DNA from: Caballeronia calidae
GTDB lineage: Bacteria; Pseudomonadota; Gammaproteobacteria; Burkholderiales; Burkholderiaceae
Length of the DNA: 64,000 nt
NCBI RefSeq assembly: GCF_900044055.2
Contig: NZ_FCOX02000009.1
Location: forward strand, 62,001 to 126,000
Reading direction: 5' to 3'
The position numbers and the translations under genes are program-made. Position 1 is the stretch's first letter; each line of letters opens with the position of its first letter. Shown in pieces: positions 16,159 to 64,000 of the stretch. A model generated the notes under the pieces. It was not told the origin of the DNA and did not search any database. It saw only the letters and a list, made by a program, of their open reading frames with translations.

Positions 16159-16317
16159 GTGAAACGCTCTCGCGAAAAATTGGGCGAAAAACGTTTCAGG
16201 GCATTGCAAACAGACAGAACGGCACCCCGCGGCGACGCACCAAAAGGCGCGGCGTCGTCCGGTTCGGCGCGATGCATGAATCGCCAAGGGGAACGGACAT
16301 GACCATCTGCACATCTT

Positions 16318-16470
16318 CTCTCATCCGGACTGTGACCGTCGGCTCTGGCTTCGCACCAGATCTGCTGACCCCGCGCATGAATTGATCGCGCGGGCGCTCG
16401 CGGGCTCGTGGTCCGGCCTCGAAGCCTCGCCACATACCGCCGGTGGGGAATTACACCCCGCCCTGAAGAC
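16318..16470 (-). ncRNA. FMN riboswitch (RFN element)
   Basis: On the minus strand the leader holds the conserved RFN blocks in order: AGGGCGGGGTGTAATTCCCC, then ACCGGCGGTATG, GAGCCCGCGAGCG, GATCTGGTGCGAAGCCAGAGC and finally GACGGTCACAGTCCGGATGA. These are the near-invariant joints of the six-helix FMN aptamer. It lies about 160 bases before the ribB start codon, so flavin mononucleotide should repress ribB when it binds. The stretch between aptamer and gene is the likely expression platform; I did not resolve whether it works by termination or by hiding the ribosome site. Confidence 0.95.
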
Positions 16471-16591
16471 GTACTGAACGCCGGCAAGCTCAACACTCGA
16501 CGGCTTTTTTAGGATACCGCACGCGATCATTTTTTGCACTGCCGCATGCGTCGCGGCCTTTCCGGAAAACGACATATGCTGCTCGCGCGCC

Positions 16592-49449: not shown

Positions 49450-49522
49450 GTTCAGGTCGAGTGAGGCGGACGTGCTATTTAAGCATGAGCGAGACGGGGA
49501 GGGCGTGCGCGGAGGAGAAAGC

Positions 49523-49558
49523 AAAAAGCCGCTGTCCTTTTGGAACAGCGGCTTTTTG
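49523..49558. terminator. Hairpin at the edge of the accessory region
   Basis: CAAAAAGCCGCTG - TCCTTTTGGAA - CAGCGGCTTTTTGA: a 12-base dyad with A and T runs on either side. It lies before the RpiR start codon (about 75 bases), so it ends transcription that would come from the right, or from the left. It marks the end of core-like sequence. Confidence 0.75.
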
Positions 49559-49760
49559 ATGAAGCTGGTGGCGAATCAGGGAAGCGCATTCCGGAGAAGC
49601 ACCCGACGCTATCCTGCTCAAAAATCAACACCTTAGCAAAACTGACCGCGCCACGCTTTGTTCCAGCCTTTTGTACCAAAATTGCGCGGAGCGCACAAGC
49701 TGAAAAGAACCGTAAGGCGCAACTTTCGAGCAGATTCGGGCAGTCGGACTTAACTTTCCG
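49559..49760. other. Non-coding stretch at the start of the accessory region
   Basis: About 200 bases (49559-49760) and the 49450-49522 stub together carry no convincing gene. I looked for a tRNA 3' end or a repeat that could be an attachment site and found none. Base composition turns more AT-rich here. Confidence 0.4.
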
Positions 49761-50003
49761 ATGACGACGTTAGAACCGAAAGACTCGTCCGAGGCAGATG
49801 CGACCCAACGACTTGCGGACGATATTGACCAACGATTTTTCGTTAATCCGGTAACCGAAGAGGCGTATTCGCAAAGCATTATTCAGGCGATGAACAGCAG
49901 GTGCCTGAACTGTGGCAGGGTCCCGCAGCTACAGTCGTTTTCGAACTTGGGTCCGGCAGCAATTCTTCGTCCGTCGGTTCGGAAGCGAACAGACCGAGGG
50001 TAA
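49761..50003 (+). CDS. Small hypothetical protein, possibly a remnant
   Basis: 80 residues: DDIDQRFFVNPVTEEAYSQSIIQAM, then a single CxxC (SRCLNCGRVPQ) and a basic end. There is no good ribosome site before ATG at 49761. A hairpin with a T run follows the stop at 50008-50041. It might be a short regulatory protein, or the start of a decayed larger gene. It lies 93 bases before the S8 protease gene. Confidence 0.35.
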   Translation: MTTLEPKDSSEADATQRLADDIDQRFFVNPVTEEAYSQSIIQAMNSRCLNCGRVPQLQSFSNLGPAAILRPSVRKRTDRG

Positions 50004-50007
50004 GTCA

Positions 50008-50041
50008 ACCCGGCACGCTTTTAGCACTTGCGCGGGTTTTT
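50008..50041 (+). terminator. Hairpin with T run before the S8 protease gene
   Basis: AACCCG ... CGGGTTTTTTG with a 20-base interior that pairs partly (GGCACG / TGCGCG), followed by six T. It lies right after the small reading frame ending at 50003 and 55 bases before the protease start; it could be an ordinary terminator or an attenuator for the protease gene. Confidence 0.5.
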
Positions 50042-50096
50042 TGTCTCAAGTGCTCGTGCCGTACCGAATCACCGACCACCTCACGAAGAGGGTGTT

Positions 50097-51674
50097 ATGA
50101 CGAAAATTCGGCAGCTCCATTCGTCACGTAGGTTCTGGTGGCCCGAGGATGGTCGAAGGGAATCTCTGCCGCTTGAATGGCGGCGGTCAGATGGCACGGC
50201 ATTGCTGACTCAGTTAGAAGCACGGGGCGTGAAAGTTCCTGGCCCGTTGAAAACCGTTCTCACGCGCCAGATTGGAGCGACGGTTCGAGCGTTAGGGCTC
50301 GCAGACCGCCTATTTGTCACCTTTGCGCTACCTTCTGGTGGCTGCCCGGGCCAGACTGCCAACCAGCTTAATTATTCTTCTGGACGCGCGGCCGCTTCCG
50401 ATGCGATTGATGCCGCCGTCGGCCACCTCGAAAATCTTGGATTTACTCGAGTTTTGCGCCTTGCGTCTGCTATTTCGGCTGCAGGGAGTGTCGAACTGGT
50501 CACGAACTTTCTGAATGTTAGTCTTTCGCTCCAATATGCTGGTACGGTGAGCTCAAAGTCGGAGACGCTGGACGAGGATGAACCGCTCGACGAGCACCGA
50601 TTGTTCATTGCCCCGCCCGAACTGGTCGTGCACTGCCCCGAAGATTCTGGGCTTGAATTCGCTGCGTTTTCGCCGCCTGCCCAGTTAGCGCACGAGATGC
50701 GAAGCCCACCATCAGTCAGCTACTACAGTCCGGCGCCGACGGAGATTGCGAAGTTGCTCAAGGTGCCCAGCGGACTTACGGGGGAGGGCGTAACAGTCGC
50801 TATCGTTGATACGGGCTTTTACCGCCATCGATGTTTTAAAGGCTATAGTTACCACCCAGTGCCGACTTCTGACGAACCGGACGCGGATATTGATGACCGT
50901 GGGCACGGCACCGCCATGGCTTGGAACATATTCGCTGTGGCCCCAAAAGCCAAAATCCTAGGTTACAAGTTCGGTGTCTGGACACCTGAATACCGACCAT
51001 TTCAGGCTGCGGTTGACTCTGGAGCGCATGTCATCTGTTGCTCGTGGGGCTATCTCGAAGCGAATGAGAACGCATACGAAACGTCGCTTAAACCCGAAAT
51101 ACGACGTGCAATCGAGAAAGGCATTATCGTGATTTTTGCCGCTGGTAACCGGTCACGAGCCAGCGTTCTTCATAATGTTGCGACCGAAAATTCGTGGCCA
51201 GCTTCAATGCCAGAGGTGATATCGGTGGGTGGTATCCACGCCGATACAAAAGGTAATCTTCACAAAAGTGACTTATCACACGAATTCAACAGTATAAATT
51301 ACCCGGGGCGAGCCGTGCCAGACGTGTGCGGCCTGTGCGGAACAGCACCGTACGGGATTTATTTTGTATTACCAACACAGCCACGAAGCGAAAGAGATAA
51401 GGCACGTCCGGGGCGTCCGCACCCCGATTATGATGAGACTAAGAAAGACGATGGTTGGTGGGGCGGCAGCGGAACAAGTTCTGCTACCGCTCAAATTGCG
51501 GGGGCTGCGGCTTTGCTCATTCAAGCCGCGCGACAAAAGGGTTGTCGGCATTTAGTGAACCAGCAATACATAAAGCAAGTCCTTTGCGCATCGAAGCGCA
51601 TAGTGCCTCAGACGTTAACGGGAATTTCCCATCTGTTAGCAGATGTCGAGGCATCTGTCAACAACATACCTTAA
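50097..51674 (+). CDS. Cytoplasmic subtilisin-like (S8) serine protease
   Basis: 525 residues. The S8 triad is complete: Asp238 in AIVDTGF, His270 in DDRGHGTAMA, Ser461 in GSGTSSATAQIAGA; Asn351 in FAAGN is the oxyanion residue. No signal peptide or membrane helix is seen, so it should act in the cytoplasm. Residues about 70-185 form an N-terminal domain (beta strand LFVTFALP, helix ASDAIDAAVGHLENLGF, strand TRVLRLASAI, then FIAPPELVVHC) that looks like a propeptide fold. The following gene encodes the same kind of domain on its own. ATG at 50097 with GAGGG upstream. AT-richer than the core genes. Confidence 0.9.
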   Translation: MTKIRQLHSSRRFWWPEDGRRESLPLEWRRSDGTALLTQLEARGVKVPGPLKTVLTRQIGATVRALGLADRLFVTFALPSGGCPGQTANQLNYSSGRAAASDAIDAAVGHLENLGFTRVLRLASAISAAGSVELVTNFLNVSLSLQYAGTVSSKSETLDEDEPLDEHRLFIAPPELVVHCPEDSGLEFAAFSPPAQLAHEMRSPPSVSYYSPAPTEIAKLLKVPSGLTGEGVTVAIVDTGFYRHRCFKGYSYHPVPTSDEPDADIDDRGHGTAMAWNIFAVAPKAKILGYKFGVWTPEYRPFQAAVDSGAHVICCSWGYLEANENAYETSLKPEIRRAIEKGIIVIFAAGNRSRASVLHNVATENSWPASMPEVISVGGIHADTKGNLHKSDLSHEFNSINYPGRAVPDVCGLCGTAPYGIYFVLPTQPRSERDKARPGRPHPDYDETKKDDGWWGGSGTSSATAQIAGAAALLIQAARQKGCRHLVNQQYIKQVLCASKRIVPQTLTGISHLLADVEASVNNIP

Positions 51675-51752
51675 TTTAGGTGACTCTCAGTAACGGATGG
51701 CTTGCGGAAATTTAGTCTACTTATAATTCCCGCATCGCCAAAGGAGGTCCGC

Positions 51753-52052
51753 ATGACAATCAGTGCCGTCGTGAGAGTCGTGCCAGACAAGAATACGGGG
51801 ACCGCTCTGCCCGAGCCGTCCACGGACAAGCTTCAGGCGGCCGCGAATGTGCTTGTACGCCTCGGATTCGTTCGTGTACGAACACTATCTTTCGGCGTTT
51901 CGTTTTTGGGACAACCCGACGACTTCAAGCGAGTCTTCGATGTTGAACTTCGTGAGGGGCAAGCTTTCGCCGAGGAGATTCGCCCCATGGGCGAGTTGGC
52001 AGACTTGGTCGACCGCCTCGAAGTGACGCCGCCCGCCATCTTATACGCATAA
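51753..52052 (+). CDS. Free-standing propeptide-like protein (putative S8 inhibitor/chaperone)
   Basis: 99 residues. It aligns over its whole length with the N-terminal domain of the protease next door (residues about 70-180): TDKLQAAANVLVRLGFVRVR against SDAIDAAVGHLENLGFTRVL, then FLGQPDDFKRVFDVEL against AGSVELVTNFLNVSL, ending VTPPAILYA against IAPPELVVHC. A long shared helix followed by 'LGFxRV' and 'F..xFxVxL' resembles inhibitor-I9/pro-kumamolisin folds. ATG at 51753 is preceded by AAAGGAGGT, the best ribosome site in the window. It should be made at high level relative to the protease and could inhibit or fold it. Confidence 0.7.
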   Translation: MTISAVVRVVPDKNTGTALPEPSTDKLQAAANVLVRLGFVRVRTLSFGVSFLGQPDDFKRVFDVELREGQAFAEEIRPMGELADLVDRLEVTPPAILYA

Positions 52053-52285
52053 TCTCAACGCCTTGCGCCGTTCAGCGTGAAACAAAGACAGCATCGATGA
52101 GCGCGTACAAGGCGTTGATTTCCCGCGCTTCAAACGTTGGTCTCCGAGGCATCTTCCCGCACCGGATTTCACCACCAGCCGCTCTCCGAACTGTCGGCTA
52201 GCAAGGAAGGGAGCCGGAGTGCCACGATTGTCCGCAGTGGCACTATTGCTCCCGAGGTACCCATGAAAGCACATAAGGGGCTCAC

Positions 52286-53479
52286 ATGGCCTTCGCACTC
52301 TACGTTGTTTCGCTCATAGCGATTGCAGTTGTATCCGTGCTTCTTGCACTGCATCTAACAACGAAAGCCGAGTTGCTCGCCAGGGAATGGGAGAAACCTC
52401 GTTCAGAGTCTATATTGGCCTCTGACTCATTGCCAGAGGTGGGCAAAGCGGGGTTCCTCAAACCTTCGTCTTGGACATCTGTCGTCTCGTCCGTGTTGAC
52501 CATCGCTGTTGTGCTTGCGTATGCGGGCACCGTTCAGTGGATGCTAGGTCCGTTGGAAGAAGCTCGAAACGATGTCCTCACGCATCTGCCGTTTTGTACC
52601 CCTGCGCAAGCGAAACCCCGCAGTGCCCAAGCAGTGCCGACATGTGCAGATGAAGTGGCGCATATCACAGGACGATTCGCTGAAGGCAGAGCAAGGCTGG
52701 CCGAGAATCAATGGCTTGTCCTGGGTTTTGCGTTCGTTGCTGTGATGGCCCTTCTGTTCGTCCCACATGGAGCCTACTGGTTTCATACGAAGTGGTTCCA
52801 TAATGACAGGCACGTTCTCACTCCTAAGGCGTTTATTCATCAAACTCATCTAGCGACGATAACGGGGCTTTTGTTTTGTTCTGTTTTGGCATTCGTGGTA
52901 ACGCACTATGGGAAGTCGTTGCAGGAGGCGGGTAATGGAGTGGCCGACATTGGCTCAAATGTCATCAGTCCGCTGACTTTTGATGCGGAACAGTATATAA
53001 AAACACTGACCACCTACGGCCCAATGTCTCAAAGTAAAAAGGTCGTTGATGATATCGTCCATATTCGAAGTGCCTTACATATAGTGTCGGCGCAAAGCTT
53101 TATACTTTTGTTGATACTGTTTGAAATCCTGAAAGAGTCCTTTATCAAGCCTATTCTGAAAGAAGGTGTTAGCGAATTTCGCCATACCCCAGAGAAGAAA
53201 GGGGAGAATAAAAACGACGATTCTTCGCCACGTGACAAGGCGTCTTGCCCCCTCTCTACGGTTGCAAATTTCGCTTCAACTGGAGCGACCGGCGCCGCGA
53301 AACCGCCAATCGATGCAATGGTCTCAGAGAACGCCGCGCCGGTGGTCGACCAGGGAAGTTTGCCCCCTCTTGCATCAAAACTTGACTTCGCCGCAACGGA
53401 GGGGACGCCGGATAACGTTGAGAATCCACTAGCTCCAGGGCGCGCAAAGGCCTCCCAAAACGGAGACACCGATAAGTAG
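52286..53479 (+). CDS. Five-helix membrane protein of unknown function
   Basis: 397 residues with hydrophobic helices at about 4-24, 64-88, 142-165, 188-208 and 265-290. Loops carry FCTPAQAKPRSAQAVPTC (two Cys) and HGAYWFHTKWFHNDRHVLTPKAFIHQTH, a His-rich stretch that could bind metal. The last 100 residues are low-complexity and probably cytoplasmic. ATG at 52286 has AAGGGG upstream. It starts 233 bases after the propeptide-like gene in the same direction and might be part of the same unit. No family was recognised. Confidence 0.65.
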   Translation: MAFALYVVSLIAIAVVSVLLALHLTTKAELLAREWEKPRSESILASDSLPEVGKAGFLKPSSWTSVVSSVLTIAVVLAYAGTVQWMLGPLEEARNDVLTHLPFCTPAQAKPRSAQAVPTCADEVAHITGRFAEGRARLAENQWLVLGFAFVAVMALLFVPHGAYWFHTKWFHNDRHVLTPKAFIHQTHLATITGLLFCSVLAFVVTHYGKSLQEAGNGVADIGSNVISPLTFDAEQYIKTLTTYGPMSQSKKVVDDIVHIRSALHIVSAQSFILLLILFEILKESFIKPILKEGVSEFRHTPEKKGENKNDDSSPRDKASCPLSTVANFASTGATGAAKPPIDAMVSENAAPVVDQGSLPPLASKLDFAATEGTPDNVENPLAPGRAKASQNGDTDK

Positions 53480-53773
53480 CACCCGCAGCCTGCATACCTC
53501 GGTTATGCGCCTCGTTGCTGGATTGCTTCTGAAGCGCGTTGACGGCCGAAATCGCGCCGATGCATCAACTGTAGTCGGGGTCTGTCGGCCCTAGACTTCG
53601 GCGGCCCGAAAGTCAATGGCTCGCCGAGTTGCTGATAATCGAGACTGCTCGGTTGACGACGCGAATCGCACAAACTTGTTTTGAACGCGGCGTGTGGGTA
53701 CTGGATGCTGGTTTGCTTGATGGCGACTCTCGCGGCGGAGAAGGACCGCCCGATAGTCCGTGGGCGGGGAGAG

Positions 53774-53905
53774 ATGACTGTAAATGCCCTCTTGCGCCCG
53801 CAAATCCTGACTTTGGACCTGCTTACTCAAAAGGCTCAACGGGAATCGCTGGCCAGGTTCGCATTATGTTTGATGGAGCTGAGCCGAATGGAGGCGCACA
53901 AATGA
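53774..53905 (+). CDS. Very small protein A of an overlapping pair
   Basis: 43 residues: MTVNALLRPQILTLDLLTQK, then a Leu/Met-rich helix. GGGGAGAG lies before the ATG. Its stop overlaps the next start in ATGA. Longer in-frame starts exist at 53705 and 53720. The coupling pattern and ribosome site are what favour coding; no homology is recognised. Confidence 0.3.
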   Translation: MTVNALLRPQILTLDLLTQKAQRESLARFALCLMELSRMEAHK

Positions 53906-54057
53906 GCCAGAGTGTGCAGGTCGACCAGAATGCGGTGCGGGAGCTCCTCAAGCTCACGCCTTTTCAGGAGCCGTGTAACGTTCCCGAAGCGCTCTTAATG
54001 CAAAAAGCAGATTTTGCGCCTGGGGGACAAGACCTTCGAATTCGGCACGATGCTTGA
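53902..54057 (+). CDS. Very small protein B of an overlapping pair
   Basis: 51 residues: MSQSVQVDQNAVRELLKLTP, then FQEPCNVPEALLMQKADFAPGG. It begins in the ATGA that ends the previous frame, so it would be translated by coupling. No homology is recognised. It could be spurious. Confidence 0.3.
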   Translation: MSQSVQVDQNAVRELLKLTPFQEPCNVPEALLMQKADFAPGGQDLRIRHDA

Positions 54058-54224
54058 ATAGGCTTGGGCTCACTTCCGGAGCAGAATCGCCAAAGTCAGT
54101 GACAGTTGTAGGCTTCGGCTTTCGACTAGCAATTCGACTCAGTTCGCGTATTCGTGCCGCCGTTGAGTCGACAGCGCGTCTCTCCGTGTTGGCGCCCAAA
54201 GTGCCAACTGAGCTTAGAGCGAGA

Positions 54225-54252
54225 AAAAACCCTAGCGCGTATGGGGGCTAGG
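54225..54252 (-). terminator. Minus-strand hairpin terminator without an obvious gene
   Basis: On the minus strand: TAGCCTAGC ... GCTAGGGTTTTTTCTC. Stem CCTAGC / GCTAGG, then six T. No minus-strand gene ends before it within 300 bases, so it may end a non-coding transcript. Confidence 0.45.
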
Positions 54253-54551
54253 CTAAAAAGCGCTGCTACACTCCCAGAATCGTACTGATTCCCGACGGGG
54301 AGGGGTAGACCACCGCGACCGCTGTGAAAAGCATTCCAGCGGGCAGCCAAGAGTGCGGCCCGGTGCTGAATCGAGGGGCGGCTGGCGTGAGATGATTCAC
54401 GTATACGCTTGACTAACGTGAGCGTATCAATCGCGACTTAACATGCCCGATGGTGCGAACTGGCTCCGACGCTGCATAGGGCGGCACGCTCACTCACGCT
54501 TTCGCTTGGGGGTGCTTCGCCCAAAAGTGCTTGACCTCACCAACACCGCAG

Positions 54552-54577
54552 AAAGTACTCTAAAATAAAAGTACTTT
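54552..54577. repeat. AT-rich inverted repeat
   Basis: AAAGTAC - TCTAAAATAAAA - GTACTTT: 7-base arms, 12-base AT-rich spacer. It is the most AT-rich spot in the region and could be a regulator site or promoter for a minus-strand transcript ending at 54225. Confidence 0.4.
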
Positions 54578-55143
54578 AAAAATGCTTTTTGAGGAAGAAA
54601 ATCTTCAGTTGAAGATATTGACGAACGGACTGTCTTCCTGCGCACGGACAAAACGGGATAACGAAGATGTCGCACATCTCGCATCGTTGCTAACTCTCCG
54701 TATCGTTCGACAGGTAGCTGTGACGCCGGTTAGTTGGTTCCGGTCCACAAACGTCTTCTCTGCAAGGCCGTTGCTTCTTAGAAGATGCTCGTTTTCGGTA
54801 CCGTCCCGTATCGGCAGCGACGACGCGCTGGTTAGATGACTGCCTAGCTGTGAAAGCCCTGCGAGCCGTTACATGCCGCCAATGAAGAGTCTAGTCGGGC
54901 GCCTTGAAATTCGGAGGTACGCGCAATTGAAGCTCTTGGACTGCCGCTCATCAATTCACTTCAAATGCTTCGCCACGAGACTCAGGACGTGCTCGTAAGC
55001 TATGGCTCAGTACTACTTTAGCGTGCTGATTTCAGCACCTCGTGCCGATTGTGTTCCCACGTCGTCAAGGACGTCGGCTAGCTGCTAGCCAAATTTGGCC
55101 CCCCAACGGAGGAGGGCTGCCTAAGCAGCCCTGTTAATCAAAG

Positions 55144-55479
55144 TTACTTGTCGTAACCCGTTCTAAATTTCTGCATCAGAGCTCGCATTAACGCCGTGCC
55201 TCGCTCGTAACCGAAAACGTGATGAATGTCGAAGCCATTCTCCGCGAACCGGAACCACCTCATTACAAACAACACGTCCTCAAAATGTTCTGCTTCGATG
55301 CAACGGCAGAGAATGTAGGCGTCCAGCTTGGCGACCCGTGCGTCATAGAGCGACAGCAGGAAGTCTGCTAACGACGCTGCGGCTTGGCCGTCGCGCTCAA
55401 GGCAATTGGCCAAGAGGCGATGCGTGGCAAGCGCGCCCATGTCGCGTTCAAATTTTGGTAGTAACCCAGGAAGTTCCAT
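55144..55479 (-). CDS. Small hypothetical protein (DUF7673-like pattern)
   Basis: 111 residues, helical: ALATHRLLANCLERDGQAAASLADFLLSLYDARVAKLDAYILCRCIEAEHFEDVLFVMRWFRF. The pattern 'ADFLL.LYDA...(F/L)D' followed by 'D.LFVMRW' recalls the DUF7673 family of mobile-element proteins, but I am not certain. ATG at 55479. It is transcribed toward the long empty region and stands 170 bases after the SSB-like gene. Confidence 0.6.
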   Translation of the reverse strand: MELPGLLPKFERDMGALATHRLLANCLERDGQAAASLADFLLSLYDARVAKLDAYILCRCIEAEHFEDVLFVMRWFRFAENGFDIHHVFGYERGTALMRALMQKFRTGYDK

Positions 55480-55582
55480 CTCATGTGGCCTCTATGTATT
55501 CGTGTGTCTTGTGTAGCGAACTAATCGCTAGAGCAAAAAGGTCTTCCCGCGACCTACAAAACAGTCTTCGACTCGCAAGACG

Positions 55583-55610
55583 AAAAAAAGCCACCCGTGT
55601 ACGGGTGGCT
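55583..55610 (-). terminator. Terminator after the SSB-like gene
   Basis: On the minus strand: AGCCACCCGT - AC - ACGGGTGGCT followed by seven T. The stem is perfect over 10 bases. It lies 40 bases after the SSB-like stop. Confidence 0.88.
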
Positions 55611-55649
55611 GAATAAGAAGGTAGCGATTGTTTCGCTCGGGACTGAACG

Positions 55650-55973
55650 TTACGCCGCCATTTGTTGCTCTGACGAAGTCGCTGCAACGGGCTTCGCAAT
55701 CTTTGTGGACTCGAAGGCAATGATTAGCAACGTTCCGGTGGGCTTACCCTCGCGGGACAAATAGAAGTCCGCCTTAAGCTTTCCTGTCGTTTTTACGAAA
55801 TCCCCTTTCTTAAGCTCAGGGCTCACGTCCTTCATAATCCGTACCGTGTACCAGGTGGGGTCCGCATCGGTACCCCGCTGACTCTCGCACATCCGAAATT
55901 CATAGTAAGCGCGTCCCGATGTTTTCGAGATTTTGCGCACGGGCTCCGTGGCAACATTGCCAAACGCTTGCAT
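55650..55973 (-). CDS. Short single-stranded DNA-binding (SSB-like) protein
   Basis: 107 residues of OB fold: FGNVATEPVRKISKTSGRAYYEFRMCE, WYTVRIMKDVSPELKKGDFVKTTGKLKADFYLSREGKPTGTLLIIAFE. The 'GDxVxxxGKLxxxxY..REGKP...L.I.A' pattern is that of SSB. The long linker and acidic tip of chromosomal SSB are missing, as in phage or plasmid forms. ATG at 55973. It follows the replication-relaxation gene by about 70 bases on the same strand, which points to a replication module. Confidence 0.82.
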   Translation of the reverse strand: MQAFGNVATEPVRKISKTSGRAYYEFRMCESQRGTDADPTWYTVRIMKDVSPELKKGDFVKTTGKLKADFYLSREGKPTGTLLIIAFESTKIAKPVAATSSEQQMAA

Positions 55974-56041
55974 TTTCTTCCCTCTTCGAAGTTAGGTCCT
56001 AGTGTCCAACAACACGTATAGTCACCAGACCTCCTCAACTT

Positions 56042-57280
56042 TCACGGAGTTATGAACGGGGAGTTGGGGCGCTTACCCCACGAGCTGCCCCGAGGGCGTC
56101 GGTAGGGCAAGTAATTCTCATCAAACCAGCCCAGGAATATGTTGTCGCTTTGGGTTCCCGAGCGATAACTCGGCAACCAAACCGGTAACTGCTGCACAAT
56201 CACGTGACCCACGCAAATGTCGAAATATTGCGCTTTAGCTTCCGAGTACCTCATGGCCCAAACCTCGAACATTCCTTCCTCAACCTCGACAAAGCGCCGT
56301 GCTGATTCGGTGGTAAGAGATGCTTGAGTCGTGTCTCGTACTCGATTTCGAAGGACCGTCAGCGCGTCTCTTAGCCGTTGTTCGCCACGGGCTAAAACAA
56401 CGACGCGGCGCAAATAGGCCCGGTTCTCTAATGGAGCACCGACGCGACCGGCCAGCAGACGCAATGAAACACGCCTGTCGCTTCCGCGTTTCGTATTGTC
56501 AATCTCAAACCAGGTAAGTCCGTCGCGTTCGATTGCAATCGCGTCGGGGCGTAGACGTCTTTGCTCATCGCCCGCGTGTACGGTTAGCAGACCTTGGGGT
56601 GCATTTCCGCTGATGAGGTTTTCCTGACTCAACTGTTCGAGGAGTTCAGATTCGGTGCTGGCTTGCAGCCCACGTACTTCGCAGCATGCAACAATGAAGT
56701 TCATCCACAGACGATGCTCGGGATTTGACATCGATGCAACGCGCCGCCCCGACGCCGAGACGTTATTCACGCCTTGTTCGTCAAGCCATCGTGCGCCGCG
56801 CACTGTCAGCCCGTTGATTGTCTGGTGCCTATCTGTCTTTTTAGTGTTGATGAAGCCAGCCTTTCGAAGACTGCGCATTGTCCGTTGGGCGGCAGAGAGA
56901 GCAGTCTTGAATGGTCGCTCGGGATAGCAGATGGCAGCGATGTCAAGCGCCCGTATTACACGAAAACGGTTGAGAGCGATAAGCGCGCGTTCCCATTCAA
57001 TCCCCCTGAGTTCTTTCGGACTTATCTCAGCGGTCAAGCCTCGGCTGACTCTGCGCGACGGCGTTGTGTTTCCTGTGCTGCGAGCTTGGGTGTCACTGAA
57101 GGAGTCGGTAGCATCGACAGTGGGTCCGTGGCTGAATGTCTCTGCTTCACTGGTCAAGGTGTCGACGTGACACTCCGGAGGTATTTCTGTTTGACGGCTT
57201 GCGTGCCTCTGTGATGCTTCTGCTTCTTGATTGAATGTCTTTTCCATCGGTTGTAACTGTTCAGGTGTTTTCGAGGCCAC
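56042..57280 (-). CDS. Replication-relaxation (Replic_Relax) family protein
   Basis: 412 residues. After a polar N-terminus of about 85 residues, a winged-helix region (LIALNRFRVIRALDIAAIC ... TMRSLRKAGFINTKKTDRHQTINGLTVRGARWLDEQG) leads into SNPEHRLWMNFIVACCEVRGLQAS and RLRPDAIAIERDGLTWFEID, which is the PF13814 pattern: winged helix plus a nuclease-like core with 'RPDA...wfEiD'. Such proteins are on plasmids and integrative elements and are linked with relaxation at origins. The start is GTG at 57280; ATG at 57247 is the alternative. A large inverted repeat lies 250-460 bases upstream. Confidence 0.75.
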   Translation of the reverse strand: MASKTPEQLQPMEKTFNQEAEASQRHASRQTEIPPECHVDTLTSEAETFSHGPTVDATDSFSDTQARSTGNTTPSRRVSRGLTAEISPKELRGIEWERALIALNRFRVIRALDIAAICYPERPFKTALSAAQRTMRSLRKAGFINTKKTDRHQTINGLTVRGARWLDEQGVNNVSASGRRVASMSNPEHRLWMNFIVACCEVRGLQASTESELLEQLSQENLISGNAPQGLLTVHAGDEQRRLRPDAIAIERDGLTWFEIDNTKRGSDRRVSLRLLAGRVGAPLENRAYLRRVVVLARGEQRLRDALTVLRNRVRDTTQASLTTESARRFVEVEEGMFEVWAMRYSEAKAQYFDICVGHVIVQQLPVWLPSYRSGTQSDNIFLGWFDENYLPYRRPRGSSWGKRPNSPFITP

Positions 57281-58111
57281 GCGTTTTCGAGGCGCGATTC
57301 AACACGCGTGGTGCGTATCTCCTATAGAGATTGCGCATGCAATTCGAAAAGGGTGAACACCTCGCAAACGCAAAAGGCGCGTCTTTTCGAGTGACGGTGC
57401 ACGGCGAGACACGGGCAATGGGGCAACTGTCTGTCCCCCGCGTCTAGCCTCGCGCGCACGGCGCGCGTCACCGCGTCTTCGTCGCGAAATTCGCCGAGGC
57501 CACTGTTCTTCCTCCGACGTTGCCGTCGGGGCGACCCCCCCCCGCCGCTGCCTGGACCTTTGCGCAACGCCACCGTGTTTTCTGGGCTGCGGCGGCGACT
57601 GTTTTCCCGGCACGCCGTTCGACTTAGCTGCCCCAAGCAGCGGAGCTGCTCGGGGACCCCGCGCCAAGAGGATTTGCGCTTTGCGCAACGAGTGACGATG
57701 AGGCGTGCGCTGCAGCGGCGGGGGGGGGTCGCCCCGACAACGCCGAATGTTCGCGAGCAACTCTTCTTCCGAAACTGTCCGGCCAGAGGAAGATGTGACC
57801 CGCGCACGCTGCCGGTCGTGTCCAAAAGGCACGCGGCTGAACGCCGCGCAGTCCGTCGGCTGGTCCGTCGAGTGCAAATCTTTTTGTCGCTTCAAGGAGG
57901 GCGTATCAAATGACGTACGGACCGATGGTGAGGGTCCCGTCGATAGTCGTGGAGCAGAGTCACTCGGTTTGTCGACACGTGTTCCGTGGTCACGTGTCAC
58001 TTAGACAGTGTTCGCTATACCTGTTGGGGAGCGATTCGGTGCCGCAGACCGACCAAGTCGGCCGGTGGCAACGGCTGCTTATCGTTCATGCACAACGACG
58101 GGAAGAAATTT
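57281..58111. other. Large structured non-coding region (possible origin)
   Basis: About 830 bases between the divergent replication-relaxation gene and a plus-strand hypothetical gene. It holds a 27-base perfect inverted repeat (57525-57551 and 57712-57738) around a smaller hairpin (57631-57655) and a direct repeat TTTGCGCAACG (57559-57569 and 57680-57690). Open frames in it read low-complexity Arg/Pro-rich peptides on both strands and are rejected as genes. Its position and structure suit an origin of replication or transfer. Confidence 0.5.
57525..57738. repeat. 27-bp perfect inverted repeat with inner hairpin
   Basis: The left arm (57525-57551) starts GTCGGGGCGA, has nine C, and ends GCCGCTGC; the right arm (57712-57738) is its exact reverse complement. 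The 160-base interior has the hairpin CCCCAAGCAGC - GGA - GCTGCTCGGGG (57631-57655, ten of eleven pairs). Coordinates may be off by one. No transposase is nearby. Confidence 0.8.
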
Positions 58112-58741
58112 ATGCATCTGAAGAAAAAGAATCGCCGAGGATACCTCTACCGAAGCGTTTGGGTACGGAAGGACCTCAAGAACGGAATTCCGCACGGTTA
58201 CAGTAAGCCGATATTGGTTGGAGCAATTTCATTGGACGCGGAAAGCATACCTCCGAAGCTTGATGCAGAGCTTACGGACGACGAGCGGCGGTATATTTTG
58301 ATGAAGGTAATTGAACCGGCCCGGCAACGCGTGGAGGCGAAACGACAAGAAGAGGCGCGCCGACGCGTGGACCCGAATTGGCGAATCGCAGATGCGGTTC
58401 GGTTGCTGAACGAAGCGCATCAGCTTATTGATGCAATGTCTCCGAAGGAGGTTCAGCCGCAAGTTTTGGACGACCTGCAGAATTCCTTCGATTTCTTCGC
58501 CGACATGCGACTTGCGAGCAGCATGAATAGCCCCGGGCCGAACTCACTCGAGGTAGCTCTCGAAGCAATCATTCGCGCCGCTCAATCGGTGAGAGAAGGG
58601 GAATTCGGGGCTGCGAAGACGTATGTTAAAAGCACGGAACCGAATCGCCTATGGCTGCAATTACGTTCGGCCTTGCTAGGCGACAACGCAGAGAGTCTCA
58701 TGAGGGCCTTGCAGGACAAGCGCTTCGTCGCAACGAGGTAA
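58112..58741 (+). CDS. Hypothetical protein of the replication module
   Basis: 209 residues, charged. A beta-rich head (MHLKKKNRRGYLYRSVWVRKDLKNGIPHGYSKPILVGAISL) is followed by helices (ERRYILMKVIEPARQRVEAK, DPNWRIADAVRLLNEAHQLI) and a C-terminus with LEVALEAIIRAAQSVREG. I have no family for it; the pattern is seen among plasmid/integrative-element proteins of this group. ATG at 58112 with GGAAG upstream; an earlier ATG at 58088 is possible. It is divergent from the replication-relaxation gene across the structured region, so DNA binding is plausible. A strong terminator-like stem follows at 58887-58913. Confidence 0.6.
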   Translation: MHLKKKNRRGYLYRSVWVRKDLKNGIPHGYSKPILVGAISLDAESIPPKLDAELTDDERRYILMKVIEPARQRVEAKRQEEARRRVDPNWRIADAVRLLNEAHQLIDAMSPKEVQPQVLDDLQNSFDFFADMRLASSMNSPGPNSLEVALEAIIRAAQSVREGEFGAAKTYVKSTEPNRLWLQLRSALLGDNAESLMRALQDKRFVATR

Positions 58742-58886
58742 GGAGCAGGACGGGTCTGTCATTCGATGATATCCGCACATGAAGCTAAGCTCGGTGCCTG
58801 TTTCCGCAGCGAACCGGCTACGGTGACCGTTTCATTGGTAAACCTCGAGGAGAGCGCCTGGCAGGTGTCTCGTCAAGCTTATGCAT

Positions 58887-58913
58887 AACAAGCCCGCTTG
58901 CTGCGGGCTTGTT
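58887..58913. terminator. Strong hairpin between convergent genes
   Basis: AACAAGCCCGC - TTGCT - GCGGGCTTGTT: 11 perfect pairs. The T run after it is short, so termination may be imperfect. It lies between the 58112 gene (plus) and the 59025 gene (minus) and could serve both. Confidence 0.65.
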
Positions 58914-59024
58914 GCTTGACGTTGAGTAGTTCTTTGATGTTACCCGCCCGAACCATTTTAGTTACTGACTCGGGCGCCACGCTGGGAAGCGGTCCAGGCG
59001 GCGCGGCGTCGTAGTGGCAGCTTC

Positions 59025-60512
59025 TTACTGCGCAGTGGCATTAGGAGGTGGCGCGGCGACCGCCTGGGCAAGCTTGAACGCCATTTTGATGCCTTCGGGC
59101 GGTCGCAGGCCGGCTTTCTGAATCATCTGCTCGGCTTGGGTCACGATGGACTGCGTGATGGCACAGTCAGCAGAATTGCAGTCGTTACCGGTGCTGGAGT
59201 AATCCGAGTCCAGGTCGCTCACGAACTTCCAGTCGTCCGCTGTCACCGGATGCGAGAGGAGGGTCGCGATGCGGGTCATGTCGTCCTGTGTGATTTCAGA
59301 CGTGGACTTCGAGTCGTGCAGCTTCTTCATCGCTGCGTCGTAGGCCGCCGTCAAGCCTCCTTCGCCAACATCTGCGACTGCCTGCGGCGCCTCGGGCGCG
59401 GGAACCGGGGTGCTCAAGGGACCGGTAATCATCGCGATGGAAATCTGTTGCAACGCTGTCACTACTTCGGCGGAGGAGGCTTGCAGTTGCACGAGTTGTT
59501 GAGCTTCGCCCGCGTCCGCGACTTCAAACTGGAGGGTCCACAGGTTTTCCGGGTCGCGAACGATTTCGCTTGACGAGTATTCGCTCTCTCGGACCCATGC
59601 GGAGTAAACGCCCGGGCGAGTGACGCCCGAGCCGTCCGGCGCGTGCACCAGTACGCGCGAACGTTGCGGGTACCGAGGCATATAGGCGAGGAAATATTGT
59701 CCACGGGAGGCTACAACGTGAATCGGCGCGCCTACGAAAAGGTCGACCTTCTCGAAACGGCCCAAGTCTTTGTTGTCAATGAAGGGCTTGAACGCATCAT
59801 TTGCCGTCTGCAAAAGTTTGCTGGCTTCGCCAAGCCGAAGGACGCTGATTCCCGCGCCCGCCTGGGCGAGCGAGGACAGCAAGGTCGCCGTCTTGAGCTT
59901 TTCGTTCGCGTCCGACAGAGTTTCTGCGTATTTGGCGGAGTCGTGAGGCAAACGTAGGGAACCGAGAAGCTTGACGTCCTGAACTAGGGCATTTCGTTGG
60001 AGATAGTAATCTCTCGCTATCTCGGCGGTGTAGCGTTGAGCGAAAAGTTTTTGGTTCGCAGGCGTCGCTTTGGCGGCGTCCGATGCAACTTCGAGCACAA
60101 GTTTGTCGTCAAGCTTGGCTAGGGCTCCGCCACCTTTTGCGAGTAATCGCGGACCGAACTGATGGCTCTCGTCCTTCATCTTGCCGAAGATGGAGACCAG
60201 TGTGTCCAAGGATTCATTCGGCGAGAACGTGTCGAACGCGGCGACGAGCAGGTTTTCGTCCGTCCGCTTAATCGAACACGTGTCCGCGATTTTGAGCAGC
60301 AGCTTGGAGTGCTCGGGTTCGTTCATTTCGGGGGACCCGAAGAACCCACCGCCCAGCTTACCGTAGAAATAATCGTCATCGGCGGGGTTGCAGGTCGAGG
60401 TCGCGTGTAACCTGTCCAGCCATGTTGCTTTGTTGTGGTGCATGAGCGCGCCGATTGCGCAAACGATGGTCGCTGCTCCAATAAACCCCCAAGCGATGTT
60501 TTTGCGTTGCAT
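59025..60512 (-). CDS. Large membrane-anchored hypothetical protein
   Basis: 495 residues. After a short basic start, one membrane helix (WGFIGAATIVCAIGALM, about 7-23) anchors the protein; the rest lies on one side of the membrane. It contains long helices (about residues 125-260, Ala/Leu/Lys rich), then a beta-rich part with VGAPIHVVASRGQYFLAYMPRYPQRSRVLVHA and WTLQFEVADAGEAQQLVQLQ. ATG at 60512 has GGGAG nine bases upstream. No catalytic motif or known family was recognised. Moderately AT-rich, as are its neighbours. Confidence 0.7.
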   Translation of the reverse strand: MQRKNIAWGFIGAATIVCAIGALMHHNKATWLDRLHATSTCNPADDDYFYGKLGGGFFGSPEMNEPEHSKLLLKIADTCSIKRTDENLLVAAFDTFSPNESLDTLVSIFGKMKDESHQFGPRLLAKGGGALAKLDDKLVLEVASDAAKATPANQKLFAQRYTAEIARDYYLQRNALVQDVKLLGSLRLPHDSAKYAETLSDANEKLKTATLLSSLAQAGAGISVLRLGEASKLLQTANDAFKPFIDNKDLGRFEKVDLFVGAPIHVVASRGQYFLAYMPRYPQRSRVLVHAPDGSGVTRPGVYSAWVRESEYSSSEIVRDPENLWTLQFEVADAGEAQQLVQLQASSAEVVTALQQISIAMITGPLSTPVPAPEAPQAVADVGEGGLTAAYDAAMKKLHDSKSTSEITQDDMTRIATLLSHPVTADDWKFVSDLDSDYSSTGNDCNSADCAITQSIVTQAEQMIQKAGLRPPEGIKMAFKLAQAVAAPPPNATAQ

Positions 60513-61178
60513 CCGGCTGTTCTCCCTCGAAGCCTGTCGCACAACTGTTCGTTTTTTATGGACGTTGCACCCATTACAGCTTGTCGCTGAGAGGGTGCGT
60601 TAAATTTCGCCCGATTATAAAGGCATCGCTTGGAATCTTGAACGGTACTATCCTCGCGTTCGCCACCGACGAACTGCGCGCATCTATTGAAATTAACAAC
60701 TTGGTCGTAGGCACGATTCCGGCAGCAGGGGAGCTATTCGACCGAGGACACCACAGGCGAATCGCCGAAGGGCAGTGACGCTAGCAATTTCTCTAGAAGA
60801 CTGCTCCTTTTCTGCTGTTCTTCCGGATTTGCTCGCCGGGTGCGGGCTCCCGTGATGCGGAGTTTGCAACGGGCTGTGCCTATCCGACCGATGGGCCGGA
60901 AGCGAGAGACTTTCTGGCGGAGAGTGGTGAGTCACTTCAACGCTTGCGTGCTTGAATATTTCCTGCGTGATTTATGAGCTGACACCCGGTGTCGTTTTTT
61001 CTGTAGACGTCGGTGCTAAGAGAACTATTGCTATTGGACTTTCACTTACGCTTACGTGCACTAGAATGACCTTGTGCGATTTCGCATCCGACGTAGGCTG
61101 GGAGATAGCTGAAACGAGCCCCGCCAAGAAGCCGCACATCTTAACCGGGGAGGGGCGGTCATCTTTGGGAGAACACTA
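60513..61178. other. Intergenic region with a weak promoter candidate
   Basis: About 665 bases without a convincing gene. Near the right end TTTCAC (61040-61045), a 16-base spacer and TAGAAT (61062-61067) resemble a promoter for the NTF2-like gene at 61179. Several frames are open for 60-80 codons but read as random. Confidence 0.35.
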
Positions 61179-61562
61179 ATGCTTGACGAAGCTGGTGCAA
61201 TACAAGCCACTCTAAACCTCATCGAAGCCGAGAACCTAAGCAGTACAAGCGGTCCAAAAGCGGTGGAAGACGCAACGCCGTTGCTGTGCGAGGGCTTGGT
61301 CTTCACGTCTAGCAAAGGCGATGAGTTGGGCAAGTTGAAGTATCTAGAGGTACTTCGCGAGGGAAAGCCGGGCGTCCGTAAGCCGCAACTACCGTTCGAC
61401 AAGGTCTGGGTACAACAGAAACTTGCGGTCGTCAGAGGCGTGATTGAATGGGAAGGCAAAACGTTTCGGAACTTGTGGGTCTTCGAGGCGGCCGACGGGC
61501 GCTGGTGTTGCGTTGCGTGGCAAGTGACTGCACACCCGGAGGCAGGGTACCCCAAGCCCTAG
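61179..61562 (+). CDS. NTF2/SnoaL-like (DUF4440-type) small protein
   Basis: 127 residues: an N-terminal helix AIQATLNLIEAENLSSTSG, then GLVFTSSKGDELGKLKYLEVL, and strands VWVQQKLAVVRGVIEW, FRNLWVFEAADGRWCCVAWQVTAH. Helix-helix-then-curved-sheet with a final 'W...(V/A)WQ.T' strand is the NTF2-like/DUF4440 pattern. ATG at 61179 follows GGGAGAACACTA. No neighbours indicate a role; family members may be enzymes, ligand binders or toxins' partners. Confidence 0.65.
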   Translation: MLDEAGAIQATLNLIEAENLSSTSGPKAVEDATPLLCEGLVFTSSKGDELGKLKYLEVLREGKPGVRKPQLPFDKVWVQQKLAVVRGVIEWEGKTFRNLWVFEAADGRWCCVAWQVTAHPEAGYPKP

Positions 61563-62056
61563 CGGCGCGTCAGTTAGACGCGCAAGCAAAGAAAAGTGGT
61601 AGCCGAAACTAACATCGTCTGTTGTAGACGCAGGACCGCATCCGTTGCGCCTGCTAGGCACTCCGCCTTTACCCCCTGGGCGAAGGCCGTCGAGCGAAAC
61701 TGCGTGGCAAATCGTCCGCTCGCTAGGTGTTTGGCTTTGTCGAATTACTGGTCGAACGCCTCGTCACTTCTGCTCGAGCGCGTCGTTGGTCGCGAGCGGG
61801 GCCAATTGGGTGTAGCTCCCGCAGTGCATGCAGCAACTGCCCTGCTCCGGGGCGTTCTTCGCTAGAACGCCGTCAGGTCGCGTTCATGCCCGATGCTCTC
61901 GTCTGCTTAAGCCACGGCCGAATCCGTTTGCTGCGGCACGAGAGCGGGAAGCGTCCCCGTAAAGGTCGAACTCCGATGGGACAGTCGACGGGTTCGGGAC
62001 GGGTCGCGCGCTGCAGGGACACGACTCGTCCGCGCATGGCTGCCGGCCTGAACGCG
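61563..62056. other. Non-coding stretch
   Basis: About 490 bases between convergent genes. No gene, hairpin with T run, or repeat was recognised. An open frame at 61727-62140 reads basic, low-complexity sequence and overlaps the small coiled-coil gene, so it is rejected. Confidence 0.4.
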
Positions 62057-62311
62057 TTACTGGCCCTCGACGACCATAGCGACGCCCTTCTGTACGGCCT
62101 CGTAGTTGGCTGCGAGAGCCTGAGCTTGCTGGAGCATTGACTCTAAGGCAGCGGCAATAAGCTTGTACTCGGCCGGCGTGGTGAATCCCTTCTTGTAGAA
62201 ATAGTTCACAATGTCCTCTCGCTTGTTGGAACGGACAAACGTCTCCAACAATGTGAGAAGGCCGTCAACGTTCTTTTCGAGATGAGCGACGTCGTGGCTG
62301 AATTCAGACAT
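62057..62311 (-). CDS. Small coiled-coil protein, paralogue 1
   Basis: 84 residues, nearly all helical: SHDVAHLEKNVDGLLTLLETFV, a turn (YKKGFTTPAEY), then KLIAAALESMLQQAQALAANYEAVQKG. It is the clear paralogue of the gene at 62483-62911: both have 'LEK.V...(L/I)L..F', '(T/S)(P/S)AEY.LI', 'L.QA......Y' and 'EG' near the end. ATG at 62311 has GGAGGC upstream. It probably forms dimers or a coiled-coil assembly. Function unknown. Confidence 0.72.
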   Translation of the reverse strand: MSEFSHDVAHLEKNVDGLLTLLETFVRSNKREDIVNYFYKKGFTTPAEYKLIAAALESMLQQAQALAANYEAVQKGVAMVVEGQ

Positions 62312-62482
62312 AAAGCCTCCAATGAAGGTGTTGGCTGCGCGCCGGCCATGAAGGGCGCGCAGAGGGAGCGATAGCTCCGCCGTTGCGGAGTCTCGTTTGC
62401 CGGACGAAGTGTTGCCGGCGAAAGTGACGCATACTTCTTGTGATATCGCTGTTGTGAGACAACTTCCCGCGCTAGTTGCTAG

Positions 62483-62911
62483 CTAGACCGATTGTTGTGC
62501 TGGGGCACTTCCGGAAGGGCTTTGCGCTCCTTCTGCCGCGCGGCGCTGAACGATAAGCCGTTGGTTGCGGCACCGAGGGCGTGGGGGCCGCGACCGCAGA
62601 GCGCGAAAGCGCGTGCGTGTGGAACCGTTTCGTACTTTCTGAGGCAACAACGCTCCCTCAAGGCGAAGCCCAACTTTCTCTGCGGCGTCCATCAACGCTG
62701 AGTATCGATTTGAGACTCCCCGTGCTTGCTCGAGGATGCCATCTAATGTTTGCGATATCAGTGTGTACTCGGCAGAACTCGGGCACCACAACGGATTGAA
62801 GATGGTGCTAATAAGGCGTCGTTCTTGATGACCGCCTGAAAATTTCAGTAGGATATCTTGGATGGCTTCAACCTTCTTTTCGAGGACCGCAATGTTGGTT
62901 GACGTTGACAT
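62483..62911 (-). CDS. Small coiled-coil protein, paralogue 2, with extended C-terminus
   Basis: 142 residues. Residues 1-85 match paralogue 1: STNIAVLEKKVEAIQDILLKF, then PSSAEYTLISQTLDGILEQA, then RYSALMDAAEKVGLRLEGA. The following 55 residues are Arg/Pro/Gln-rich and unlike the first part; they may result from a frameshift or be a true tail. ATG at 62911 has GGGAGG just upstream. It is 171 bases before paralogue 1 and in the same direction, so the pair arose by tandem duplication. Confidence 0.65.
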   Translation of the reverse strand: MSTSTNIAVLEKKVEAIQDILLKFSGGHQERRLISTIFNPLWCPSSAEYTLISQTLDGILEQARGVSNRYSALMDAAEKVGLRLEGALLPQKVRNGSTRTRFRALRSRPPRPRCRNQRLIVQRRAAEGAQSPSGSAPAQQSV

Positions 62912-63367
62912 GGGAACCTCCCTGTTTGCGACATACATGGAGAGGGCGAGGCGAGACAGTTATCGAGGCGACACGGACGTTTCTTTCGTGAGTCGCTCTC
63001 GGGCCTCAACGATATTGCGCTAGCGAATCCAGTAAAGCTGAAGGAGGGCGCATGCCTAAGACGATAGACCTTCGGCGGAATTGAAAAGGCCCTAATCGAT
63101 GGGTCTGGGACCCAGCAAAAGTAGGGGCTGACGGCAAGAGGTGCGGCGGCGGCCGTTCGACGGCTTTTGTGGTGCGCGAAAGCTTGTCGACCCGTGGGGG
63201 TCCTCGGACTTCAGGCATCAAGATGAGTCGTTTATTTCAAATGGGAGCTGGAGTGCTGGAGTACCTCCTCTTTTGATGGATTTTTTTTTTATTGAACTAA
63301 CCTTTCACCTTATGGCGGGCTTGTAGGTCTCGGCTCAAAACGAAATCGTCAATACGAGGGATATCGG
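62912..63367. other. Non-coding stretch with an 11-base T run
   Basis: About 455 bases between the divergent paralogue 2 and the chitosanase-like gene. A run of about 11 T is seen near 63282-63292. No gene was recognised; promoters of both flanking genes must lie here. Confidence 0.4.
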
Positions 63368-64000
63368 ATGCGCAACGCTTTCTCTGCCACTATCGCGGTT
63401 ATCGCTCTTCTGTCGACCTCGCTCTCCTATGCAGAGAGATATGAGCCTCCTCAGTCTTCTGCAGACGCTCTGAAACACATAGACCTCTCAGGAAGGCCAA
63501 TGGCAGACAGTTTCCGGCAGGCATTCGCCGCTTGCGACAAGGGAAATGGCAAGCCGCAGTGCGACGGCAACGACCTGAATCGAAACACGACCATCCTGGA
63601 ACTCAACAGCGGTGCCATCCTGTTCGACGCTAAGATGGCTGTCGACAACGACGGGTCACCGTTTGCAGGCAAATGGCCAAGCCAACCTCAAACCTCCCTC
63701 TTCTACTCGGACGGGCGAACCAGTATCAACGCGGACAAAATCCGCTACATCGCAGTGCCCGGCGGGTTCGACGCAAAAGCCGGCTTCGTTTTGGGAGACG
63801 TCGCGGCCGTCATCTACAGGGATAAAGTCGCGTTCGCACTGGTGGCCGACCACAGCAAGTCTTACCGTGTCGGAGAGGGTTCCGTCGCGCTGCACACCGC
63901 ACTTGGACACGACGGATGTAGGCAGTTGGCGCCGGACGGTAACTGCAAAAGACCACGGAACGATAGCATCGGCTCTGGTGTGACCTACATTGTGTTTCCT
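63368..64000 (+). CDS. Secreted GH75 (fungal-type) chitosanase-like protein (partial)
   Basis: 211 residues are visible before the window ends. The signal peptide is residues 1-22 (SATIAVIALLSTSLSYA). ILELNSGAILFDAKMAVDNDG (residues 76-96), TSLFYSDGRTSINADKIRYIAVP and VLGDVAAVIYRDKVAFALVADHSKSYRVGEGSVALHTALG match the GH75 fold; the pair Asp161 and Glu170 stands where the family's catalytic Asp/Glu are expected. Two to four Cys (residues 56, 65, 184, 193) may form disulphides. ATG at 63368 follows GAGGG. It would degrade chitosan or a similar glucosamine polymer outside the cell. The family call is by pattern. Confidence 0.7.
   Translation, partial: MRNAFSATIAVIALLSTSLSYAERYEPPQSSADALKHIDLSGRPMADSFRQAFAACDKGNGKPQCDGNDLNRNTTILELNSGAILFDAKMAVDNDGSPFAGKWPSQPQTSLFYSDGRTSINADKIRYIAVPGGFDAKAGFVLGDVAAVIYRDKVAFALVADHSKSYRVGEGSVALHTALGHDGCRQLAPDGNCKRPRNDSIGSGVTYIVFP

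Follow-up and report, generated by a model that had tools for sequence, protein, structure and literature searches.

A subtilisin-type protease gene beside a gene for a free-standing prodomain-like protein in Caballeronia calidae and in other bacteria and archaea: a candidate inhibitor acting in trans

In a stretch of 64,000 nucleotides from Caballeronia calidae (NCBI RefSeq assembly GCF_900044055.2, contig NZ_FCOX02000009.1, positions 62,001 to 126,000 of the forward strand; the whole stretch is called the window below), a gene for an S8 (subtilisin-type) protease is accompanied by a small gene whose product, judging from sequence and predicted structure, resembles the protease's own type of prodomain in free-standing form. 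The protease gene (50097..51674, plus strand) runs from ATG to stop and encodes 525 amino acids, and its stop codon is separated by 78 bases from the ATG of the small gene (51753..52052, plus strand; 99 amino acids), in agreement with the coordinates, lengths and spacing given in an earlier note on this DNA. Residues 229-497 match the Pfam family Peptidase_S8 (PF00082) with E 3.8e-25 and 89.2 bits against a cut-off of 21.8, and the catalytic domain so delimited (50781..51587, plus strand) contains D238, H270 and S461, the triad that the note had described as complete, as well as the oxyanion residue N351, all four being invariant across an alignment of 51 proteases, which together places the protein in family S8. 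The PADLOC model 'subtilase' matches residues 173-480 (E 1.6e-12). The protease was also rightly described as lacking a signal peptide, as no such stretch was seen in its first 60 residues (best 12-residue Kyte-Doolittle hydropathy 1.02), and the highest such value among the 55 proteases compared, some of which have uncertain starts, is 1.64.

The small gene is preceded by the ribosome site AGGAGGT (51742..51748, plus strand), which a pattern scan found only here in the window at a distance of 3-9 bases from an ATG (0.19 expected); it is thus, as far as tested, the strongest site in the window, as had been claimed, and the shorter pattern AGGAG has eight matches, not above chance. Taken by itself, this site suggests that the small protein would be made in excess over the protease. 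A sigma-70-like promoter was not found, and terminator-like sites are close to the number in shuffled sequence (5 versus 4.0). The small protein has no signal-like stretch (12-residue Kyte-Doolittle value 1.67), and nothing in Pfam (no family at E 1), NCBIfam or PADLOC matched the member in the window. Its predicted elements are strand 3-9, helix 24-36, strands 40-44 and 48-53, helix 55-62, strands 72-75 and 86-92 and a tail, 93-99, and the structure model (pLDDT 89) has the beta-alpha-beta-beta-alpha-beta fold that, together with a free tail, characterises subtilase prodomains and I9-type inhibitors. In the VIA structure comparison of this model pro-kumamolisin forms the top row, with unrelated ferredoxin-like proteins at similar Z in the same list, and a Foldseek structure search gave no significant row. 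Among the 35 Pfam families matched by 49 members of the small-protein family, Inhibitor_I9 is not within the best 25, and the Pro-kumamolisin activation domain (PF09286) is matched by 16 of the 49 at E up to 1 (best 6.5e-5) and by one of seven S8 relatives (16.1 bits, below the cut-off of 23.5), with no match for the window protein. That domain is known as a fusion to the S53 sedolisin catalytic domain, whereas here it would occur on an S8 protease and as a free protein.

The earlier note had proposed that the two proteins share a domain. This cannot be demonstrated from the two sequences alone, as BLASTP between the 525-residue and the 99-residue protein finds no similarity (best E 30), but it stands at the family level, where hhalign, applied to 49 small proteins and 51 proteases, returns 99.5% with E 1.2e-22 (without a negative control). 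The match joins residues 2-99 of the small protein to residues 66-199 of the protease (50292..50693, plus strand), so that the stretch lies in the prodomain-like N-terminal domain as had been supposed, albeit not at about 70-180. Predicted strands and helices of this domain fall at 71-77, 101-113, 117-121, 125-131, 132-139, 144-148, 168-172 and 188-191; the VIA comparison of the protease model covers residues 202-525, and the same predicted type of fold, for which the note had asked, is recognised by comparing the small-protein model with the succession of elements in that of the protease rather than by direct superposition. With a hidden Markov model (HMM) of the small proteins, the N-terminal domain is recognised in most proteases (E 1e-9 to 1e-25), the weak matches being those of the window (0.95) and of the loci L006 (0.32), L008/L009 (0.0028) and L040 (6.8e-4), with none listed for L007, L037, L060, L070, L073 and L074. 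The proteases of the window, Paraburkholderia aspalathi and Roseateles cluster on long branches, a grouping for which the tree program flags possible uncertainty, and because of this and the weak HMM match the window pair is regarded as a divergent member of the family.

The C-terminus of the small protein is conserved in the family. A typical member ends in PPE(F/L/Y)(F/Y). In a set of 59 copies, counting close kin and one duplicate locus, the protein stops no more than two residues from the end of the model match in 50, and F or Y is present among the final three residues in 44, these two amino acids making up 6.6% of all residues. This end aligns with a PPxxF-type stretch of the protease that immediately precedes the linker of ESPLPP type leading to the catalytic domain: eight of 50 loci do not line up at the tail (L003, L012, L021, L025, L028, L034, L052, L054), and in 39 of the remaining 42 the protease has P..(F/Y/L/M/H) at that position. 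In the window the small protein ends in PPAILYA (residues 93-99; 52029..52049, plus strand), the proposed occupant of the active-site cleft, and the protease has PPAQLA, of which PPAQL (residues 193-197; 50673..50687, plus strand) is by alignment the counterpart of the relatives' PPxxF and a putative cleavage site. The PP at 93-94 pairs with the PP at protease residues 193-194 and not, as the note's 'PP..(V/L)' motif had it, with that at about 173. According to a published account, subtilase propeptides insert their C-terminal tail into the cleft in the manner of a product, and altering the tail changes how potent POIA1 and YIB2 are (PMC10580911). The conserved and aligned tail, seen together with this published behaviour, therefore points to inhibition by a ready-made cleaved end.

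The two genes are also found as neighbours elsewhere. A protease alignment search of genome contigs yielded 66 loci, a single-protein search there having found nothing, and adding the window, five loci from plasmids and L008, which duplicates L009, brought the scanned set to 73 loci. Excluding L008 and L072, in which the small gene is present and no S8 open reading frame (ORF) was called, the small gene occurs in 57 of 71 non-duplicate loci with an S8 ORF; the 14 without it are L005, L006, L007, L020, L027, L033, L037, L060, L063, L067, L069, L070, L073 and L074. The gap between the genes is below 400 bases in 56 of the 57 and 2.1 kb in L048. Carriers of the pair include cyanobacteria, actinomycetes, proteobacteria, Bacteroidota and archaea (Methanosarcina, Bathyarchaeota, Lokiarchaeota and Thermoplasmata), and the linkage anticipated in the earlier note is thereby borne out. 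In the 55 loci of a protease tree, built without L008, L017, L068, L072 and the S8 hits below 150 bits (L070, L073, L074), the small gene lies upstream on the same strand in 25, downstream in 23 and downstream in convergent orientation in seven, and this quick tree requires six changes of gene arrangement. A profile search of 50 whole genomes from which loci had been fetched gave 93 matches (two in 43 genomes, one in seven): 45 genomes have a free copy, always on the contig of the protease and within about 4 kb of it, five have the protease domain alone, and among the best candidates, up to 91 per genome, there was no copy away from the protease locus.

Three samples drawn regardless of the pair show that it is rare and scattered. 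Matches of any kind occur in 9 of 398 genomes of Pseudomonadota, 9 of 292 from the phylum of Moorena and 11 of 200 from the order of Nonomuraea, and free-standing copies in one (the window genome), one (the centre of that sample itself) and seven, respectively. All nine free-standing copies adjoin an S8 gene (among the best candidates, up to 11, 15 and 22 per genome), two of these pairs (G1092, G1156) being in genomes outside the existing loci, while G1155 is L025 and G1178 is L034. When the small protein of the window was compared with 299 genomes of its family, it matched only itself and P. aspalathi, in which the S8 gene stands 14 bases before the small gene. No match came from a search of plasmids with the small protein; this search has to be considered insensitive because it missed a relative, L004 of Calothrix, that lies on a plasmid of the searched collection. 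Fourteen matches of the samples fall into proteins from long ORFs that have no match to S8; from its motifs, we take one of them, L076, to be an S53-type protease. In the phylum of Moorena, eight S8 proteases with the N-terminal domain (L088-L095) were found with no free copy; of the six whose ends were read, five extend at the C-terminus by more than 100 residues. Close to one of these eight proteases, at locus L117 in the genome of L090, a 36-residue open fragment matches the small protein weakly (E 6.6e-4) and may be a remnant of the small gene. A further subtype (L056, L062, L064, L065, L067) consists of S8 proteases of 828-910 residues with a C-terminal extension ending in a Cys-rich motif, four of the five loci having the small gene; the small proteins of L062 and L064 end in GVPF or GFPF, and a PF motif resembling these precedes the linker in the N-terminal domains of the proteases there.

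Both genes are under purifying selection across the close pairs compared. In 21 such pairs the small gene is coding-like, with a ratio of the proportions of non-synonymous and synonymous differences (pN/pS) of 0.05-0.48, exceeding that of its protease in 17. The distances between small proteins correlate with those between the catalytic parts (r 0.76, n = 55, 0 of 2000 permutations). A joint tree of 51 small proteins and 52 N-terminal domains, which leaves out eight loci (near-copies and L008), matches with E above 1e-6 or fewer than 70 positions, and the too weakly matching N-terminal domains of the window, L009 and L040, requires five label changes, in contrast to about 34.6 in shuffles, and the test does not reject that all small proteins form one clade (p-AU 0.308; columns are few and support is weak). 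An origin of the free copies from one or a few old duplications would be in line with this.

A natural deletion bears directly on what the small gene does. In Nonomuraea guangzhouensis (L027) and Nonomuraea sp. NEAU-A123 (L033) about 250 bases are missing when compared to the sister locus L031, in which this stretch holds nearly all of the small gene, and its first codons and the protease gene remain. Both proteases keep the triad and differ from each other by 13 non-synonymous and 36 synonymous differences (pN/pS 0.129). The deletion was probably one event, and the existence of constrained proteases without the small gene would argue against an indispensable antidote as well as against an obligatory chaperone.

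We therefore favour, with a probability of about 70%, a two-gene cytoplasmic unit in which an S8 zymogen with its own prodomain is joined by a free copy of that prodomain acting in trans as a product-like inhibitor. The protease would be synthesised as a subtilase zymogen, with self-cleavage following the PPxxF-type motif. The small protein, whose chain already stops at this motif, would dock like the cleaved prodomain and inhibit in a reversible, product-like way through its tail in the active-site cleft, serving as a second brake on protease molecules that have degraded their own prodomain. As the small gene has been lost while the protease was kept, it would be a tuning brake and neither an essential antidote nor an obligatory folding helper. 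Of the inhibitor-type reading in the earlier note, the part that holds is a free prodomain-like protein encoded by a linked gene with a C-terminus fitting inhibition in trans, but not the switch attached to it.

No description of the pair was found in the literature searched, which was mostly at the level of abstracts, most subscription papers being outside its scope. The closest functional precedent appears to be SpeB-Spi of Streptococcus pyogenes, in which the protease gene is juxtaposed to that of Spi, 'a propeptide analogue' (PMC2873492). In both cases a free propeptide of the protease's type is encoded separately, next to the protease gene; however, SpeB is a C10 cysteine protease, whereas the window protease is an S8 serine protease with no signal peptide seen, its prodomain is of the subtilisin/sedolisin fold, and the pair occurs in bacteria and archaea. 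The pair would accordingly work like the SpeB-Spi type without being a member of it. POIA1, YIB2 and AtSPI-1 are eukaryotic free-standing inhibitors of family I9 that are not known to be encoded beside their target protease, and they are of a different sequence family, the nearest Pfam family here being Pro-kuma_activ. The intracellular subtilisin of Bacillus is a cytoplasmic subtilase held by a separate inhibitor, BsuPI, but the fold of BsuPI differs and that subtilisin has only a short propeptide.

Alternatively, the small protein might be a folding chaperone acting in trans and needed for maturation of the protease, which we consider unlikely. It is true that it has the same predicted fold type and belongs to the same family as the N-terminal domain of the protease, and that the prodomains of mesophilic bacterial subtilases act as chaperones (PMC10580911). 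However, nearly all partnered proteases keep this domain in cis (the match being weak in the window's clade), and the two Nonomuraea proteases without the small gene are under purifying selection.

A toxin-antitoxin or defence unit, in which the active protease kills the cell unless held by the small protein, appears very improbable, even though the two genes are adjacent, their distribution is sporadic (the 9, 9 and 11 sampled genomes with any match, nine of them with pairs), the protease matches the PADLOC 'subtilase' model and the pair lies in an accessory region of lower guanine-plus-cytosine (GC) content. At about 49.5-51 kb the GC content of the window drops from about 0.65 to about 0.54, and the pair opens a lower-GC stretch (about 49500-64000) with SSB-like (55650-55973) and Replic_Relax-like (56042-57280) ORFs, both below Pfam cut-offs, which would suggest an integrated mobile region. 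Against such a unit, the stress, defence or toxin-like switch of the earlier note, stands the loss of the small gene at two Nonomuraea loci whose protease remains intact and constrained, contrary to the expectation that a toxin is not kept working without its antitoxin. A defence link likewise finds no footing in the neighbourhood: among 585 neighbouring ORFs of 70 loci no gene family occurs in more than five loci. The five-locus groups are an opposite-strand ORF in Nonomuraea kin and an ABC-type ATPase at 1.2-5.2 kb in five unrelated loci, and the four-locus groups are kin of Nonomuraea or Moorena and an enolase-type protein at 0.9-3.7 kb in four loci. Of 175 listed neighbouring ORFs, a listing that left out 20 loci and ORFs above 700 residues, 147 were compared with Pfam (E 1e-5), giving no family with more than two members, and with PADLOC (E 1e-10), giving five families with one member each (without a background rate), so that no defence island or recurrent family was seen among them. 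A scan of viral contigs gave 35 pattern stretches and no relative. Of the side observations, L035, L048 and L063 have a common gene family 0.4-2.5 kb downstream of the protease, and the window carries an FMN riboswitch (Rfam RF00050, 104 bits) at 16309-16474 on the minus strand.

That the small protein is a dedicated substrate of the protease, e.g., a precursor from which a signal or modified peptide is made, might be supposed from relatives in clusters of a biosynthetic type, but is hardly to be expected. On plasmids of Rhizobium and Mesorhizobium (L005, L006) related S8 proteases lie among FolE, adenylosuccinate lyase and PurH, purine/pterin-type enzymes whose presence resembles a biosynthetic cluster; the small gene, however, was not found in these fetched loci of 6.6 kb. 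Moreover, no modifying enzyme or exporter recurs beside the pairs in the neighbours examined, the conserved core is a fold and not an excisable peptide, and no export signal was seen. Coincidental neighbours with a chance resemblance, for which only the blank BLASTP result between the two proteins speaks, can practically be dismissed given the linkage and profile match across bacteria and archaea, and are contradicted by the 50-genome search, in which, among the matches listed, all free copies are at the protease locus.

If inhibition is confirmed, the propeptide-analogue pairs would gain a subtilase counterpart, present in bacteria and archaea, and a role would be assigned to a small-protein family whose member in the window has no match in Pfam, NCBIfam or PADLOC. 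Natural loci with and without the second brake, present even within Nonomuraea, would offer genetically simple models for how a cytoplasmic subtilase is kept safe. More tentatively, the pair could represent an intracellular protease switch of bacteria and archaea, in which a sedolisin-like prodomain, duplicated long ago, serves the S8 zymogen as a second, reusable brake in trans whose removal or degradation upon a cue would time the onset of cytoplasmic proteolysis, a prokaryotic counterpart of proteinase B and its inhibitor IB2 in yeast.
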